From assembly GCF_030412785.1 (NCBI RefSeq), contig NZ_CP125295.1, forward strand, positions 2,976,001 to 3,040,000: 64,000 nt of DNA, read 5' to 3'. Numbering within the stretch: the stretch's first letter is position 1; each line of letters starts with the position of its first letter. Below are positions 46,622-52,858 of this stretch, one piece after another. Under the pieces are notes generated by a model that saw only the letters and a program-made list of their open reading frames with translations, searched no databases and was not told the DNA's origin. Both the position numbers and the translations under genes were made by a program. The DNA is from Paraburkholderia sabiae. GTDB lineage: Bacteria; Pseudomonadota; Gammaproteobacteria; Burkholderiales; Burkholderiaceae.

Positions 46622-46783
46622 TGCAGATTCACTTTTCCGCACGCGTCGGTCGCACTGTGATCCAACTGGTCCGCGCCAATCGATTCGTGCAACACCCCGC
46701 CCTTCCTCACGATCCGACAGGTCCGCTGCCTGCCGCGCGTGTGCGCGCGCGGGGAAGCGAAGCAGCCTGCCGAGGAGAACGTA

Positions 46784-48781
46784 TTGGCAAAGCTTGACCG
46801 GGACAACTCCCAGTTCGAAACCACCGCACCGAAAGCGCCCAAGCGCGCAGCAAAGGCCAAGGCGCAACCCGCCGCCGCGCCTCAGGACGCGGCCTTGATG
46901 GAATCTCTCGTTGAAGAGCGTCAACGTCAGATGCGCGCACTGATCGCGCTGGGCCGCGAGCGCGGCTATTTGACGCACGCAGACATCAACGACCACCTCC
47001 CCGACAATTTCACCGAAACGGCCGCGATGGAAACCATCGTCAGCACGTTCGGCGAAATGGGCGTGTCCGTGTACGAAACGGCGCCCGACGCGGAAACGCT
47101 GCTTCTGAACGACGGCCCATCGGCCGCCGCATCGGACGATCAGGCCGATGAAGAAGCGGAAGTCGCGCTGTCCACCGTCGACTCCGAGTTCGGCCGCACC
47201 ACCGACCCCGTCCGCATGTACATGCGTGAAATGGGCGCGAGCGAGCTGCTGACGCGCGCCGGCGAAATCGAAATCGCCAAGCGCATCGAAGGCGGCCTGC
47301 AGGACATGGTGCAAGCCATCGCGATGTGTCCGTCCATCATCTCGACGATTCTCGCGGACGTCGATCGCGTGGTCGCGGGTGAAATCCGCATCGACGAGCT
47401 GGTCGACGGCATCAGCGACACCAGCGAAGCCGCCGAAATGGACGAAGACGCAGCCGATGCCGCCGCTGAAGAAGAACTGGAAGCGAGCGCCTCGGACGAC
47501 GAATCGGACGACGAAGACGGCGATCTTTCCGACGACGGCGGCGAAAAGGCCAATGCGGCGCGCCTCGAACAGCTGACGGCAGACAGCCTCGCTATTTTCG
47601 AGCGCGTGCGCGCCCTGTTCGCGAGCGTGCCCGACATGCCCGTCACGGACAAGCGCCGCGCGACGGCCATCGCGAATCTGCGCGAGTCGATCCAGCAGGA
47701 ACTCACGCCGATCCGCTTCACGGCCAAGACCATCGACCGTCTGTGCGCGGAAGTGCAGGCGCAGGTCGCACAAGTGCGCGCGATCGAACGCAGCATTCTG
47801 TCGATCGCCGTGGATCGCTGCGACATGCCGCGCGAAGCGTTCATCGAGTCGTTCCCCGGTAGCGAAACGGACCTCGACTGGACGATGCGCGTCGCCGCGA
47901 AGTCGAAGACGTATGGCCCGGCGCTCGAGCGTCACCTGCCCGCCATCCAGTCGGAACAGCAGAAGCTCGTCGACATCGAAGCGTCGATCGCGCTGCCGCT
48001 GCAGCAACTGAAGCAGATCAACAAGCAGCTCGGCTCGGCTGAATCGAAGATGCGCCAGGCCAAGCGCGAGATGATCGAAGCGAACCTGCGTCTCGTGATC
48101 TCGATCGCGAAGAAGTACGTCAATCGCGGCATGCACTTCCTCGATCTGATCCAGGAAGGCAACATCGGCCTGATGAAGGCGGTGGACAAGTTCGAATACC
48201 GTCGCGGCTGGAAATTCTCGACGTACGCAACGTGGTGGGTTCGTCAGGCCATCACGCGCGCGATCGCCGACCAGGCGCGCACCATTCGTGTGCCGGTTCA
48301 CATGATCGAATCGATCAACAAGCTGAACCGCATCCAGCGCGAGATCGTGCAGCAGACGGGCCAGGAACCGCATCCGTCGGTGCTCGCCGAGCGCATGGAC
48401 ATGCCCGAAGCGAAGATCCGCAGCATCCTGAAGATCGCGAAGAATCCGGCGTCGCTGGATTCGCCCGTCGGTGAAGACGCCGACACGACGCTCGGCGACA
48501 TGATCGAAGACACGTCGGCAACGTCGCCCGCCGACGCCGCCGTGCACGCGAACATGCGCCGCGCGATCGACGAAGCGCTCGACGCGCTCACGCCGCGCGA
48601 AGCGAAGGTGCTGCGCATGCGCTACGGCATCGACACGGCGTCGGAACTGACGCTCGAAGAAGTGGGCCGCCAGTTCGACGTGACGCGCGAGCGTATCCGC
48701 CAGATCGAAGGCAAGGCGATCCGCAAGCTCAATCACCCGAGCCGTGCGGACAAGCTGCGCCCGTTCCTCGAACGCAGCTGA
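46784..48781 (+). CDS. rpoD: RNA polymerase sigma-70 factor RpoD
   Basis: 665 residues with all sigma-70 regions: 1.1 (about 40-120), 1.2 ('[20 protein letters not shown]'), a long acidic insert (about 220-265), 2 ('[20 protein letters not shown]', '[20 protein letters not shown]'), 3, and 4.2 ('[20 protein letters not shown]'). The likely start is TTG 46784, with GAGGAG seven bases upstream; no better ATG exists in the long frame. No dnaG or rpsU lies beside it, though these usually precede rpoD, so it may be a second copy. It carries its own terminator. Confidence 0.93.
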
Positions 48782-48913: not shown

Positions 48914-49354
48914 TCAGTGATGCTCGCTGTATTCCTTGCGTGCCATCGGCGTCGCGCGGACCTTCGCGTACTGGAACGCCGGAATCGACTTGACCGCGTC
49001 CTTCGTCGCGCCTGCCCAGATCAGCTTGCCGTCTGCGTAGTCGATCTGCGAGAAAGGCACGGCGACGTCATGCTGCGACACGCCGAGGAACTGATGCGCA
49101 GCGACGATCGCGAACGAAGCAGCGTTGTCCGGCGAAATGATGATGTCGTGGAGCACGCCGACCTTCTGGCCCTGCTCGTTGTAGATCGGCTTGCCAAGCA
49201 GGCTCTTCTTCGCGCTCCAGCCGTTGATGATGATCGCTTCCTGCTCGACGCTCACGCCGATGGTCTGCGCACCTGCCACCTGTGCGCTTGCCTGGCTGGA
49301 CATCACGCCGAACGTCGATGCCGCGATCAGAACCGCTGCCCACTTTGCTTTCAT
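48914..49354 (-). CDS. PRC-barrel domain exported protein
   Basis: 146 residues: a signal peptide ending 'SQASAQ' (about 25), then a PRC-barrel ('SLLGKPIYNEQGQKVGVLHDIIISPDN' in parts, 'AIVAAHQFLGVSQHDVAVPFS' in parts). PRC-barrels occur in RimM and photosynthetic proteins and in small envelope proteins of unknown function, to which this belongs. GGAG precedes the ATG. Similar proteins in Burkholderia are often stress-induced. Confidence 0.85.
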   Translation of the reverse strand: MKAKWAAVLIAASTFGVMSSQASAQVAGAQTIGVSVEQEAIIINGWSAKKSLLGKPIYNEQGQKVGVLHDIIISPDNAASFAIVAAHQFLGVSQHDVAVPFSQIDYADGKLIWAGATKDAVKSIPAFQYAKVRATPMARKEYSEHH

Positions 49355-50327: not shown

Positions 50328-50444
50328 AGCATCCTCTCCGTTGATGACGGCGCTATCGTGCGCCTCGTTGCGTCGAACGCAATCCTTTTCAGCTCGCATT
50401 CTAAGCGTATTCTTTTACCGGCATAGGGCATGCGTGCATGCACG

Positions 50445-50478
50445 AAAAAAAAACGCCAGGCGCATCGGCACCTGGCGT
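50445..50478 (-). terminator. Terminator of the riboswitch-controlled gene
   Basis: ACGCCAGG (50453-50460) pairs with CCTGGCGT (50471-50478); on the minus strand the hairpin is followed by T (complement of the A-run 50445-50453). It lies 61 bases after the spherulin-like stop. Confidence 0.9.
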
Positions 50479-50538
50479 CGGTCGACAATCAACTGCACAG
50501 GCGCGCGAGGCGCCCTTCTTCTTGTTGGTTATTCTTTG

Positions 50539-51360
50539 TTATTTCACCGCGAGCGCGTTGCTCACCAACTGACTCCAGTACGCGGGCAGATTCTTGTACG
50601 GATTCGGCAAACCCGTCGACGTCACGAACACACTCCCCGCGCCATGTTTCGCCGCATATGACACGATGCCCGGCATCTGCGCCTCGGTCGCGCCGTACAC
50701 CATGTGCACGAAGCGCTTCGCCGGATAGTTCGCTTGCCATTTGGCCGGCGCGTAGTTCGCGTAGTGCTTTGCCGAATCTTCGAATACGACGAACTGATCG
50801 GCCGTCGGCAGGCTCGCGTAGAGTTCGGGAACGTTCGTGCCGGGATTGCCCATCACCGAATAGGCAGGCGACAACCCTTTGATGTAGTTGTAGACCGACT
50901 GATAGAACTGGATATGCGCGGTCACGCTGTCCGACGTCATCTCATCGATAAAGAATCCGTCAATCTTGTAGAGCGCGACATAGCGATTGATGTCCGTCAC
51001 GACCGCCGACAACGAACGCTTCGAATACGACGTGGACACATAGCCGATCACGCGCCCACCTGCTGCATGCACTTTCGCGATCGCTGCGATATACGTGGCG
51101 TCAGCGTTCGCGCCGGGGCCGCTATCGGGATTGAGAATGACAGTGGTCGGCACTTTGGCCGCCGTCGACGCGAGGTCGTTCCAGAAGCCGGCGCCCTTGC
51201 CGACAGGATCGAAATAGGCGGGCACCGTCAGCGGCATCACGGTCGCTGCGAATGCGTTCGCGTGAACAGCCATGGCGAGCGGCGCCACAGCGAGCAACGC
51301 CACACGACGCAGCCATTGAATGGCACGAAATCCCGAAACGGGTGTGCGAGCGTTGAACAT
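50539..51360 (-). CDS. Spherulin-4-like predicted glycosidase (GH135-type), c-di-GMP riboswitch controlled
   Basis: 273 residues from ATG 51360 with AGGAGG upstream. An N-terminal segment with a hydrophobic stretch (about 14-38) is a signal or anchor. The rest is a spherulation-specific family 4 (spherulin-4) TIM-barrel: 'LTVPAYFDPVGKGAGFWNDL', 'TTVILNPDSGPG', 'GGRVIGYVSTSYSKRSLSAV', 'KIDGFFIDEMTSD', 'YSVMGNPGTNVPELYAS' and 'KRFVHMVYGA'. Related Sph3 (GH135) cuts galactosaminogalactan. Asp/Glu in 'FFIDEM' are plausible catalytic residues. A GEMM riboswitch precedes it. Substrate unknown; an amino-sugar exopolysaccharide is likely. Confidence 0.85.
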   Translation of the reverse strand: MFNARTPVSGFRAIQWLRRVALLAVAPLAMAVHANAFAATVMPLTVPAYFDPVGKGAGFWNDLASTAAKVPTTVILNPDSGPGANADATYIAAIAKVHAAGGRVIGYVSTSYSKRSLSAVVTDINRYVALYKIDGFFIDEMTSDSVTAHIQFYQSVYNYIKGLSPAYSVMGNPGTNVPELYASLPTADQFVVFEDSAKHYANYAPAKWQANYPAKRFVHMVYGATEAQMPGIVSYAAKHGAGSVFVTSTGLPNPYKNLPAYWSQLVSNALAVK

Positions 51361-51420
51361 CCCGATGCCTCCTGACGACGGCATCTCGCCGTCCATCGTT
51401 TGGCCCGCTGCATACGCAAC

Positions 51421-51492
51421 GGGCAACTGGCTAACTCCTGTACGGAGTCCCTTTAGCTTTGCGTCGCCGGATCGCTCCGGTTTTGCCCTTCC
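51421..51492 (-). ncRNA. Cyclic di-GMP-I (GEMM) riboswitch
   Basis: Minus-strand order: GGGCAAAA (5' P1, 51488-51481), CCGGA-GCGA-UCCGG (P2 with a GNRA tetraloop), GACGCAAAGC, then a P3 arm with ACUCC/GGAGU and GCUAA/UUAGC, then AGCCAG and UUGCCC (3' P1, ends 51421). All core GEMM landmarks are in order. The expression region downstream has GCCCGTTGC/GCAGCGGGC (51403-51424), sharing four bases with the 3' P1 strand, then competing hairpins 51377-51393 and 51364-51385, the latter covering part of the AGGAGG. Control is therefore probably at translation. Confidence 0.9.
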
Positions 51493-51595
51493 GTGTATAT
51501 CGACGCCCAGTTGCCCGTCTTTAGGCCTCAATCCGCAAATTTAAATAGGGAGAGATTCAGAACCGGATAGTTGATTTCGCGATCCTGATTAATTC

Positions 51596-51633
51596 AACGT
51601 TTGCGAATTGCGATTACGCGATTCGCAAACGTT
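51596..51633. terminator. Terminator-like long hairpin before the riboswitch transcription unit
   Basis: AACGTTTGCGAAT (51596-51608) pairs perfectly with ATTCGCAAACGTT (51621-51633), and the loop itself pairs GCG/CGC. A T-run lies on the plus strand, weaker on the minus. It separates the FAH gene (ends 51677, minus strand) from the riboswitch unit. Confidence 0.75.
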
Positions 51634-51676
51634 TTCCTCTACCCAATTCGCGGCGTAGCCATGCCGCTAAAAAATC

Positions 51677-52858
51677 TCAGTCGAACAACCCACGCGAGGC
51701 AAGATTCGCGTAAAGCGCGCGCACGCCGAAGGTCCACGGCGTGATTTCCGTGCACAGTTGCACGGTATTGCGCAACCCGCCGAGTTGCGGCGTCGAGATC
51801 GTAACGATGTCGCCAAGGTGATGCGTGAAACCGCCGCCCTTCGTATCGCGGTCCTTGATCGGTGAAAACATCGTGCCGAGGAAAAGCATGAAACCGTCCG
51901 GATACTGATGATGTTTGCCGCATGTCTGCGCGACGAGATCGGCGGGATCGCGGCTGATCTCCGACATATGGCTCACGCCTTCGAGCAGAAAGCCGTCGTC
52001 GGCGCCTTCCACTCGCAGCGACACGCTCGCACGGCGCACGGAGTCGAGCGTGAAATCGCCGTCGAACAGACGCACGAACGGCCCGATCGAACACGAGCCG
52101 TTGTTGTCCTTGCACTTGCCGAGCAGCAACGCCGAACGCCCTTCGATATCGCGCAGATTCACATCGTTGCCGAGCGTCGCACCGACGATCACCGCGCGGC
52201 TGTTGACGGCCAGCACGATCTCAGGCTCCGGGTTGTTCCATGTCGACGCTGCCAGCAAACCGACGTCAGCGCCGAATCCCACCGACGACATCGCCTGCGA
52301 CTTGGAAAACACTTCCGCGTCCGGGCCGATGCCCACTTCCATGTATTGCGACCACGCGCCGCGCCGTTCGAGTTCCGCCTTCAACCGCGCCGCCGCGTCC
52401 GAGCCGGGCTTGATCTTCGACAGATCCGCGCCGATCACCGATGCGATCGTCTGCCGCACTTCTTCGGCCTTCGCGGGGTCGCCGCCCGCCTGCTCTTCGA
52501 TCACGCGCTCGATCAGACTCACGGCGAACGTGACGCCGCATGCCTTGATCGGCTGAACGTCGCACGGTGCGAGCAGGCGCAGCTTCGCCGAGGGATCGTT
52601 CGCGAGACTCGCTTCGATCAGTTCGGCCGCGCTGCACAGGCGCTCGCCGGGCGCGTTGCGCGCGATCTCGAGCGCATCGTCGCGTTCGAACAGATCCGCC
52701 GTGGTCGGCACGCTCAACGTGATATCGAACACGTCGCCATGACGCACGGCCACGACGCTCGGCCCTTCGTGCGCGCCCGTCTTGCGCCACACGCGGCCGA
52801 TCAGCAGCGCGCGGTCGAGGTCGTCGGGAAGATAGTTCGCTGCAGTCGATGCGCTCAT
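51677..52858 (-). CDS. Fumarylacetoacetate hydrolase family protein (likely 2-keto-3-deoxy sugar acid dehydratase)
   Basis: 393 residues: an N-terminal part of about 120 residues, then an FAH-like domain with 'PIKACGVTFAVSLIERVIEEQ' (in parts), 'VGIGPDAEVFSKSQAMSSVG', 'NNPEPEIVLAVNSRAVIVGAT' and 'ALLLGKCKDNNGSCSIGPFV'. FAH proteins of this size act on 2-keto-3-deoxyxylonate (XylX) or relatives, giving 2-oxoglutarate semialdehyde. The next gene is an IlvD/Edd sugar-acid dehydratase, as in Weimberg clusters. Substrate inferred from context. Gap to it 38 bases. Confidence 0.85.
   Translation of the reverse strand: MSASTAANYLPDDLDRALLIGRVWRKTGAHEGPSVVAVRHGDVFDITLSVPTTADLFERDDALEIARNAPGERLCSAAELIEASLANDPSAKLRLLAPCDVQPIKACGVTFAVSLIERVIEEQAGGDPAKAEEVRQTIASVIGADLSKIKPGSDAAARLKAELERRGAWSQYMEVGIGPDAEVFSKSQAMSSVGFGADVGLLAASTWNNPEPEIVLAVNSRAVIVGATLGNDVNLRDIEGRSALLLGKCKDNNGSCSIGPFVRLFDGDFTLDSVRRASVSLRVEGADDGFLLEGVSHMSEISRDPADLVAQTCGKHHQYPDGFMLFLGTMFSPIKDRDTKGGGFTHHLGDIVTISTPQLGGLRNTVQLCTEITPWTFGVRALYANLASRGLFD

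Follow-up and report, generated by a model that had tools for sequence, protein, structure and literature searches.

The Vc2 aptamer of Vibrio cholerae belongs to the same family as the aptamer described here. Vc2 is a translational OFF switch of the GEMM-I class, and the stability of its P1 helix works as the switch (PMC9262584). The Cd1 aptamer of Clostridioides difficile is a transcriptional switch on flagellar genes, and c-di-GMP represses a function of the motile state there (PMC9262584), as is likewise predicted for the present locus. In Bdellovibrio, the merRNA, a c-di-GMP riboswitch RNA, is found in the swimming attack phase, in which promoters are widely FliA-like (PMC3627812). In the case of the enzymes, Sph3 of Aspergillus (GH135) and the hydrolase domain of PelA of Pseudomonas (GH166) are both endo-alpha-1,4-N-acetylgalactosaminidases (PMC8546845). 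Spherulin-4 genes occur in some actinobacterial Agd3 operons, and Pel-like genes lie near Gram-negative Agd3 homologues (PMC7229062). These operons put the link between Spherulin-4 and a polymer in print, but the sections of that paper covered here mention no riboswitch, FliA promoter or Burkholderiales pel pairing. A survey of GEMM regulons in 255 genomes placed 21 polysaccharide-degradation genes under GEMM RNAs; in its sections covered here, neither a Spherulin4 gene nor a link to Pel nor a FliA promoter appears (PMC3766115). A search of open-licence PMC gave no paper on spherulin together with a riboswitch, and among the matches listed none joins the Spherulin4 family, a riboswitch and Pel by its title or the start of its abstract. 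The control of matrix destruction by c-di-GMP is mostly described through proteins.

The window, that is, the whole 64,000-nucleotide stretch of DNA of the soil bacterium Paraburkholderia sabiae analysed here, contains a GEMM-I aptamer in front of a Spherulin4 gene. Unlike Vc2, whose target is a regulator gene, this aptamer has a sigma-28 type promoter directly at it and a predicted exopolysaccharide hydrolase as its target. The locus also differs from Cd1, as its leader is without a terminator and its target is a putative matrix hydrolase. It differs from the merRNA as well, which reportedly does not regulate any gene in cis; the table row of the merRNA is unmarked for a FliA promoter (PMC3627812). 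The product belongs to the same sequence family as Sph3 (GH135); unlike Sph3 and PelA, it is a bacterial form under predicted riboswitch control, with a putative activity. The unit of a sigma-28 type promoter, an OFF riboswitch and a Pel-associated hydrolase, kept in many species, seems to be new. The features of the locus are as follows.

51519..51523, minus strand: -35-like element TAAAG of a sigma-28 (FliA) type promoter, within TAAAG-N14-GTCGATAT
51497..51504, minus strand: -10-like element GTCGATAT of the same FliA-type promoter, the whole box having 2 mismatches
51419..51497, minus strand: GEMM-I c-di-GMP class I aptamer (RF01051), full-length model match
51483..51488, minus strand: 5' strand of P1, GGGCAA, complement of 51421-51426
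51421..51426, minus strand: 3' strand of P1, UUGCCC, the predicted switching strand, common to the anti-aptamer hairpin (from the sequence and the pairing table)
51403..51424, minus strand: anti-aptamer hairpin GCCCGUUGC-GUAU-GCAGCGGGC, which excludes P1 (pairing in 53 loci)
51367..51404, minus strand: predicted Shine-Dalgarno-sequestering hairpin (minimum-energy fold of the leader to the ATG, aptamer 3' strand occupied)
51368..51373, minus strand: Shine-Dalgarno sequence AGGAGG
50539..51360, minus strand: Spherulin4 (PF12138)/GH135-like protein of 273 aa, ATG at 51360
50452..50479, minus strand: intrinsic-terminator-like hairpin with a 12-pair stem and a T run, 3' of the gene

In our best reading, to which we give a probability of about 0.64, a Pel hydrolase is made when the flagellar genes are on and c-di-GMP is low, by means of a FliA-type promoter and an OFF riboswitch. 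FliA (sigma-28) would transcribe a single-gene mRNA that begins almost at the first base of the aptamer. When c-di-GMP is bound, P1 would hold the aptamer 3' strand UUGCCC. The strand GCGGGCC would then be free and would close a GCC...GGC hairpin over AGGAGG, and translation would be off. At low c-di-GMP, the 3' strand would pair with GCGGGC, the hairpin at the ribosome site would lose its base, and translation would be on. Such a locus would be a gate with two inputs: a matrix-cutting enzyme would be made if the flagellar programme is on and c-di-GMP is low. The enzyme appears to be limited to flagella-building, low-c-di-GMP cells, because the RNA switch with the FliA-type promoter is predicted to hide the start site when bound. 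A more far-reaching statement could equally well hold or fail: the Burkholderiales would have a self-contained biofilm-exit gate, in which a sigma-28 promoter lies directly on a c-di-GMP OFF riboswitch and an exported Pel hydrolase is made only in cells that are starting flagella and are depleted of c-di-GMP.

An earlier note, made from the letters of the window, described a complete GEMM-I riboswitch at 51421-51492. All the landmarks given there are present in order: first GGGCAAA (51488-51482), next a CCGG stem closed by a GCGA loop, then GACGCAAAGC, the P3 arm and AGCCAG, and last UUGCCC (51426-51421). The covariance-model search proposed in the same place gives a significant match to RF01051 (c-di-GMP-I) at 51497-51419 of the minus strand, with 53.4 bits against the curated cut-off (gathering score) of 35 bits and an E value of 1.3e-7 for the 64-kb window. 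The match covers the full length of the model (1-87). The coordinates given earlier were correct to within a few bases, and the ATG of the gene expected about 60 bases downstream is separated from the Rfam match by 58 nt. The whole 9.9-Mb genome has no other RF01051 match. According to the sequence and the alignment, the aptamer has three helices, a P2 loop of the GNRA type and the elements GGCAAA, GACGCAAAGC, AGCC and UUGCC. P3 is shortened, and a part of the Rfam consensus is missing there in the Rfam alignment. The P2 loop is of the GNRA type in all the 53 loci compared below. The riboswitch is a bona fide member of the known family RF01051, and its binding of c-di-GMP is predicted.

The position that we take to be the equivalent of G20 of Vc2 in these leaders is G in 52 of the 53 loci, the window included, and C in one. 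In Vc2, G20 is a selectivity position, with G for c-di-GMP and A for cGAMP (PMC9262584). The GEMM-I class also has members that sense cGAMP (PMC8835794). With G at the position so assigned in nearly every locus, it is highly improbable that the aptamer is of the GEMM-Ib kind and senses 3',3'-cGAMP instead of c-di-GMP.

The aptamer and the gene are kept together. The riboswitch was found in 30 of 299 genomes of the same family, and the Spherulin4 gene adjoins it in 29 of the 30 loci fetched. In the genus sample (144 genomes), PF12138 was found in 27 genomes and the aptamer in 24 of those; the other three have one close copy without an aptamer (L113) and two remote paralogues, of 27-28% identity, without an aptamer. 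A scan of named genomes gave 63 loci. The aptamer is also present in three of these that lie outside the Burkholderiaceae, two labelled Oxalobacteraceae and one from an uncultured Burkholderiales. Remote relatives (Nitrosomonas, Zoogloea, Delftia, Acidovorax and others) have no aptamer at the Rfam cut-off. After the removal of duplicates, 53 distinct loci with aptamer and gene were obtained from Burkholderiaceae and Oxalobacteraceae-like genomes. Excluded from the counts on these loci were 33 rows that are duplicates or that copy the window locus, L037 with its decayed aptamer, L002 (aptamer, other gene), and the loci in which no aptamer was found, namely L113, L060, L061 and L063, which have the close gene, and L067-L093, L119 and L120, which have the remote gene.

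In a protein tree of 87 rows, all the 53 aptamer rows fall inside one clade of 58 rows (support 96/93). The aptamer label needs four changes on this tree, and 0 of 500 shuffles gave a number as low; the shuffles, like the Fisher tests given below, overstate independence, because the loci share descent. The four changes are explained, for instance, by one gain and three losses of the aptamer. The earlier note had inferred that c-di-GMP directly controls the next gene, and this prediction is backed by the conservation of the pair in 53 loci and by the covarying platform described below. The predicted OFF direction, the FliA-type promoter and the Pel link go beyond that note.

Several further occurrences were observed. 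In L037 (3866-3919, Caballeronia grimmiae), the aptamer is decayed (24.9 bits against the cut-off of 35) and the FliA-type box is perfect. The anti-aptamer strand pair is intact there and the C after the ribosome site is gone; this locus is perhaps a natural constitutive version. L113, from genome G300 of the same genus, has a close Spherulin4 gene and a perfect FliA-type box, and no aptamer was found in it. Genome G017 of the family sample has two stronger RF01051 copies, one at C9:578581-578669 and one at 1501-1589 of L002. The L002 copy, which is the one read, is not beside a Spherulin4 gene, and a 196-codon frame of unknown function lies downstream. In the order-level sample, RF01051 was found in 149 of 399 genomes, several of which have 3-4 copies. 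In all three non-Burkholderiaceae aptamer loci, RF02278 (Betaproteobacteria toxic small RNA) lies about 1.1 kb before the riboswitch on the other strand (L064 2604-2666, L065 2659-2721, L066 91-153).

The aptamer 3' strand (GCC C/U GC) can leave P1 and pair instead with GC G/A GGC, a strand that lies a short distance of a few bases downstream. Pairs 1-6 of this anti-aptamer helix form in 48, 53, 53, 53, 51 and 49 of the 53 loci, and pairs 7 and 8 in 47 and 37. C-G/U-A and other exchanges are seen among the loci. Covariation was evaluated in an alignment (A2) of 35 of the 53 loci, from which 18 near-copies (over 95% alike) were left out, using shuffles that keep the relatedness of the loci. For the six pairs, 95.7% of the cells are paired, against 90.4% in the shuffled alignments and at most 49% in slid versions. 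The covariation score and the number of pair types were not reached in 500 shuffles, and the pairs changed on both sides are at chance level (202 of 500 shuffles as high).

The second helix is the hairpin at the ribosome site. Its base is formed by GCC (51404-51402), which consists of the last two bases of the anti-aptamer strand and the next C, and GGC (51369-51367) at the end of the Shine-Dalgarno sequence. Above the base, GAUG (51397-51394) and ACGGC (51392-51388) pair with partners in 51382-51374. With the 3' strand occupied, this hairpin is the minimum-energy fold in 9 of the 10 loci shown, and also in the window. The stem above GCC/GGC is mostly GAC/GUC, in some loci GAU/AUC or GAUG/CAUC, and AUUC/GAAU in one Oxalobacteraceae locus; the three non-Burkholderiaceae loci have the same platform design with a different stem sequence. 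In the 35-row alignment, 97.6% of the cells are paired, against 93.6% in shuffled and at most 56% in slid versions. Three pairs are changed on both sides (9 of 500 shuffles as high), and the covariation was reached in 0 of 500. The GCC:GGC pairs are invariant and show no covariation; the support comes from the stem above. The anti-aptamer and sequestering helices share bases and are mutually exclusive, and the ribosome site is predicted to be hidden in the ligand-bound form. The covarying platform links the aptamer 3' strand to the Shine-Dalgarno sequence of the gene.

The direction of switching was evaluated by the free energy required to open the Shine-Dalgarno sequence with the aptamer 3' strand occupied or free, the ligand-free state being modelled as a 3' strand that is simply free. 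When the RNA is cut at the start codon, the mean opening energy of the 53 loci is 5.15 kcal/mol (occupied) versus 1.00 kcal/mol (free). The occupied state is costlier by more than 0.2 kcal/mol in 52 of the 53 loci; the last one (L010) shows +0.17, and none is against. Shuffled linkers with the same cut gave -0.69 +/- 2.45, with 37% above 0.2. A difference of 3 kcal/mol is reached by 37 of the 53 real loci versus 5% of the shuffled linkers. The window itself shows 2.42 (occupied) versus 0.68 kcal/mol (free). With an RNA that runs on into the coding region, to 25 nt beyond the ribosome site, OFF is favoured by more than 0.2 in 46 of the 53 loci, and the opposite direction in 6 (control -0.53 +/- 1.70, 28% above 0.2). 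The margin of the window is then only 4.69 versus 3.94 kcal/mol, because the clade of the window can form a hairpin GAUGCC/GGCAUC in both states. Base counts after AGGAGG at putative starts were discarded as a control, as Spherulin4 loci were mixed in.

It is quite unlikely that the switch works otherwise, with c-di-GMP as an activator (ON) of the gene, or with Rho-dependent termination or RNA decay as the level of control. Aptamers of the GEMM type serve as ON- or OFF-switches according to the title of PMC9262584, and the small difference of the window with the longer cut would agree with such a mode. The anti-aptamer hairpin is also stable and often appears in the free folding of whole leaders; therefore, the switch must be kinetic. 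On the other hand, a scan of the leader found no terminator, and the sequence has no T run after either hairpin. A C, useful only for sequestering, stands right after the ribosome site in 53 of 53 anchored loci, in a site search that preferred a following C. Moreover, the two supported helices overlap, and therefore the logic is that of OFF (52 of 53 loci, start-codon cut). A translational OFF switch like Vc2 is predicted; our confidence in this is moderate for the window and greater for the group.

The FliA (sigma-28) promoter consensus is of the type TAAAG-N14/15-GCCGATAA. A similar FliA-type consensus is given in PMC3627812. The pattern TAAAG-N13..15-GCCG[A/T]TAA was searched with 0-2 mismatches allowed, and the box of the window lies within 2 mismatches of it. 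Transcription would be expected to start at about 51489-51492, a few bases before P1. In 35 of the 53 loci, among them the window, the box abuts the aptamer, and each of these boxes has a shuffle p of no more than 0.015. It is present in all the Paraburkholderia, Caballeronia and Robbsia loci (some records are titled Burkholderia sp.) and absent in 18 loci, which are 15 of 15 of the Ralstonia genus and 3 others. Among the 32 loci whose spacer is N14, identity is 0.91-1.00 in the -35 columns and 0.31-0.66 in the spacer columns; four of the eight -10 columns are 1.00 identical and the rest 0.44-0.84. In the genome of the window, such a box (1-2 mismatches) precedes 4 of the 6 flagellin-domain genes at a distance of 117-132 nt from the domain, a count made with no shuffle control. 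A scan of the own genome gave 17 hits of the pattern versus 11 for the reversed control, the genes after the hits being inspected as raw frames. This genome-wide scan is too weak alone, and therefore the conservation and the flagellin genes were relied on. No sigma-70-type promoter was found in 50400-51700, where 0.6 would be expected by chance. The FliA dependence of Spherulin4 transcription is a prediction from these sequence features.

Box and aptamer are found apart: L113 and L037, with no working aptamer, keep the perfect box, and the Ralstonia genus keeps the aptamer without the box. In the Ralstonia loci, a candidate sigma-70-like promoter pair was noticed by eye. A perfect 12-nt inverted repeat joins 51507-51518 in the promoter spacer to 51419-51430 at the aptamer 3' strand. 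In several close relatives the spacer letters resemble this arm, maybe by chance kept by descent, or as a feature at the DNA level. The arm at 51518-51507 was considered as a second, upstream anti-aptamer strand and was dropped: it should be absent from the RNA, because it lies inside the predicted 14-nt spacer of the FliA-type promoter.

The polysaccharide hydrolase predicted earlier for the gene is of the Spherulin4/GH135 type according to its profile and structure matches. The score for PF12138 is 162.2 bits (cut-off 30.2, E 2e-47), and the protein matches the solved GH135 Sph3 structures PDB 5c5g (E 8e-15) and 5d6t (E 8.8e-15); among the NCBIfam profiles no match was found. A signal-like segment at the N-terminus was judged by eye. 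If residue numbers and chain positions in 5c5g are taken to differ by 50, Sph3 D166, E167 and E222 correspond in the alignment to D139, E140 and E194 of the window protein. These three residues of the window protein are invariant across 12 aligned sequences, the window included. We take E167 and E222 to be active-site acids of Sph3. Sph3h is an endo-alpha-1,4-N-acetylgalactosaminidase, and its D166A mutant is inactive (PMC8546845). The window protein is putatively an exported GH135-type enzyme of this activity. The terminator-like hairpin follows the gene, and therefore the Spherulin4 gene probably stands alone as a single-gene mRNA; in 50400-51700, 3 terminator-like sites were found, with 1.6 expected by chance.

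The occurrence of the gene was compared with that of pelF, detected as PF11997. In the family sample pelF is present in 117 of 299 genomes. It is present in 30 of 30 riboswitch genomes versus 87 of 269 others (p 4.6e-14, in a test that ignores relatedness and uses an overlap tallied by hand); in one of the 30, the Spherulin4 gene is not beside the riboswitch. In the genus sample pelF is present in 59 of 144 genomes, and in 25 of 25 genomes with the close gene versus 34 of 119 others (p 4.7e-12, again ignoring relatedness and with a hand tally). In 13 of these 25 genomes, pelF lies 11.5-11.8 kb from the Spherulin4 gene on the opposite strand, in a divergent arrangement; in the other 12, no pelF lies within 20 kb, and some of the assemblies are fragmented. 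In G209 and G267, two genomes of the Caballeronia genus, pelF is about 10.9 kb from the gene (by hand). In L182, one of the 13, profiles identify pelB, pelD, pelF and pelG next to the Spherulin4 gene, and a 964-aa frame without a Pfam match occupies the place of pelA. All of them are transcribed in the direction leading away from the Spherulin4 gene. The own genome has two pelF genes, 0.6 and 2.2 Mb from the Spherulin4 gene.

Pel synthesis is activated by c-di-GMP through PelD, and therefore this messenger would act on the hydrolase in the opposite sense. Pel is partly deacetylated, which contrasts with the specificity of Sph3 described below. Pel consists of alpha-1,4-linked galactosamine and N-acetylgalactosamine (PMC9135694), and in galactosaminogalactan Sph3 cuts the alpha-1,4-GalNAc linkages (PMC8546845). 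The families GH135 and GH166 are placed together as galactosaminidases of the GAG/Pel type, and Sph3 is reported to be specific for the fully acetylated polymer (PMC12054363). In the parts of the literature covered by the search, no report was found of Sph3 cutting Pel. The substrate of the window enzyme would most likely be the cell's own Pel exopolysaccharide.

An enzyme aimed outward, for example at fungal galactosaminogalactan, is a minor but real possibility: fungi are the partners of many Paraburkholderia, and the gene of the window genome is away from pel. The characterized relative, Sph3, is a fungal enzyme that cuts this polymer (PMC8546845, PMC12054363). The presence of pelF in every aptamer genome and every close-gene genome of the two samples, and the divergent arrangement in 13 of the 25, argue for the cell's own Pel instead, and control by c-di-GMP would suit a self-made matrix better than prey. 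It is also unlikely that the enzyme, instead of serving biofilm exit, does housekeeping work in Pel biosynthesis by clearing polymer, the role proposed for the fungal Sph3. Polymer synthesis in Aspergillus needs Sph3, which is thought to prevent clogging (PMC12054363), and an enzyme that clears leftover polymer after the end of synthesis would likewise have to be expressed at low c-di-GMP. However, a flagellar-type promoter would be odd for a biosynthesis gene, the gene is absent from 34 of the 59 pelF genomes of the genus, and in the pel operon of L182 the place of pelA is already taken by a frame of the operon itself.

If the reading as a Pel hydrolase for leaving the biofilm is true, one messenger would drive the synthesis and the destruction of Pel in opposite directions, through a protein sensor and an RNA sensor, and the genes for the two functions would often lie back to back. 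Direct gating of a matrix hydrolase by a riboswitch that is conserved across genera and associated with pel would be a simple link from the messenger to biofilm exit. The reading also suggests a substrate (Pel) and an expression condition for a bacterial GH135 group.

In a search of a plasmid collection, one Caballeronia record matched the leader. Elsewhere in the window, a 146-aa PRC-barrel protein (PF05239) with a signal-like start, judged by eye, lies at 48914-49354 on the minus strand, and a 680-aa frame at 46739-48781 on the plus strand resembles, also by eye, the main sigma factor RpoD.
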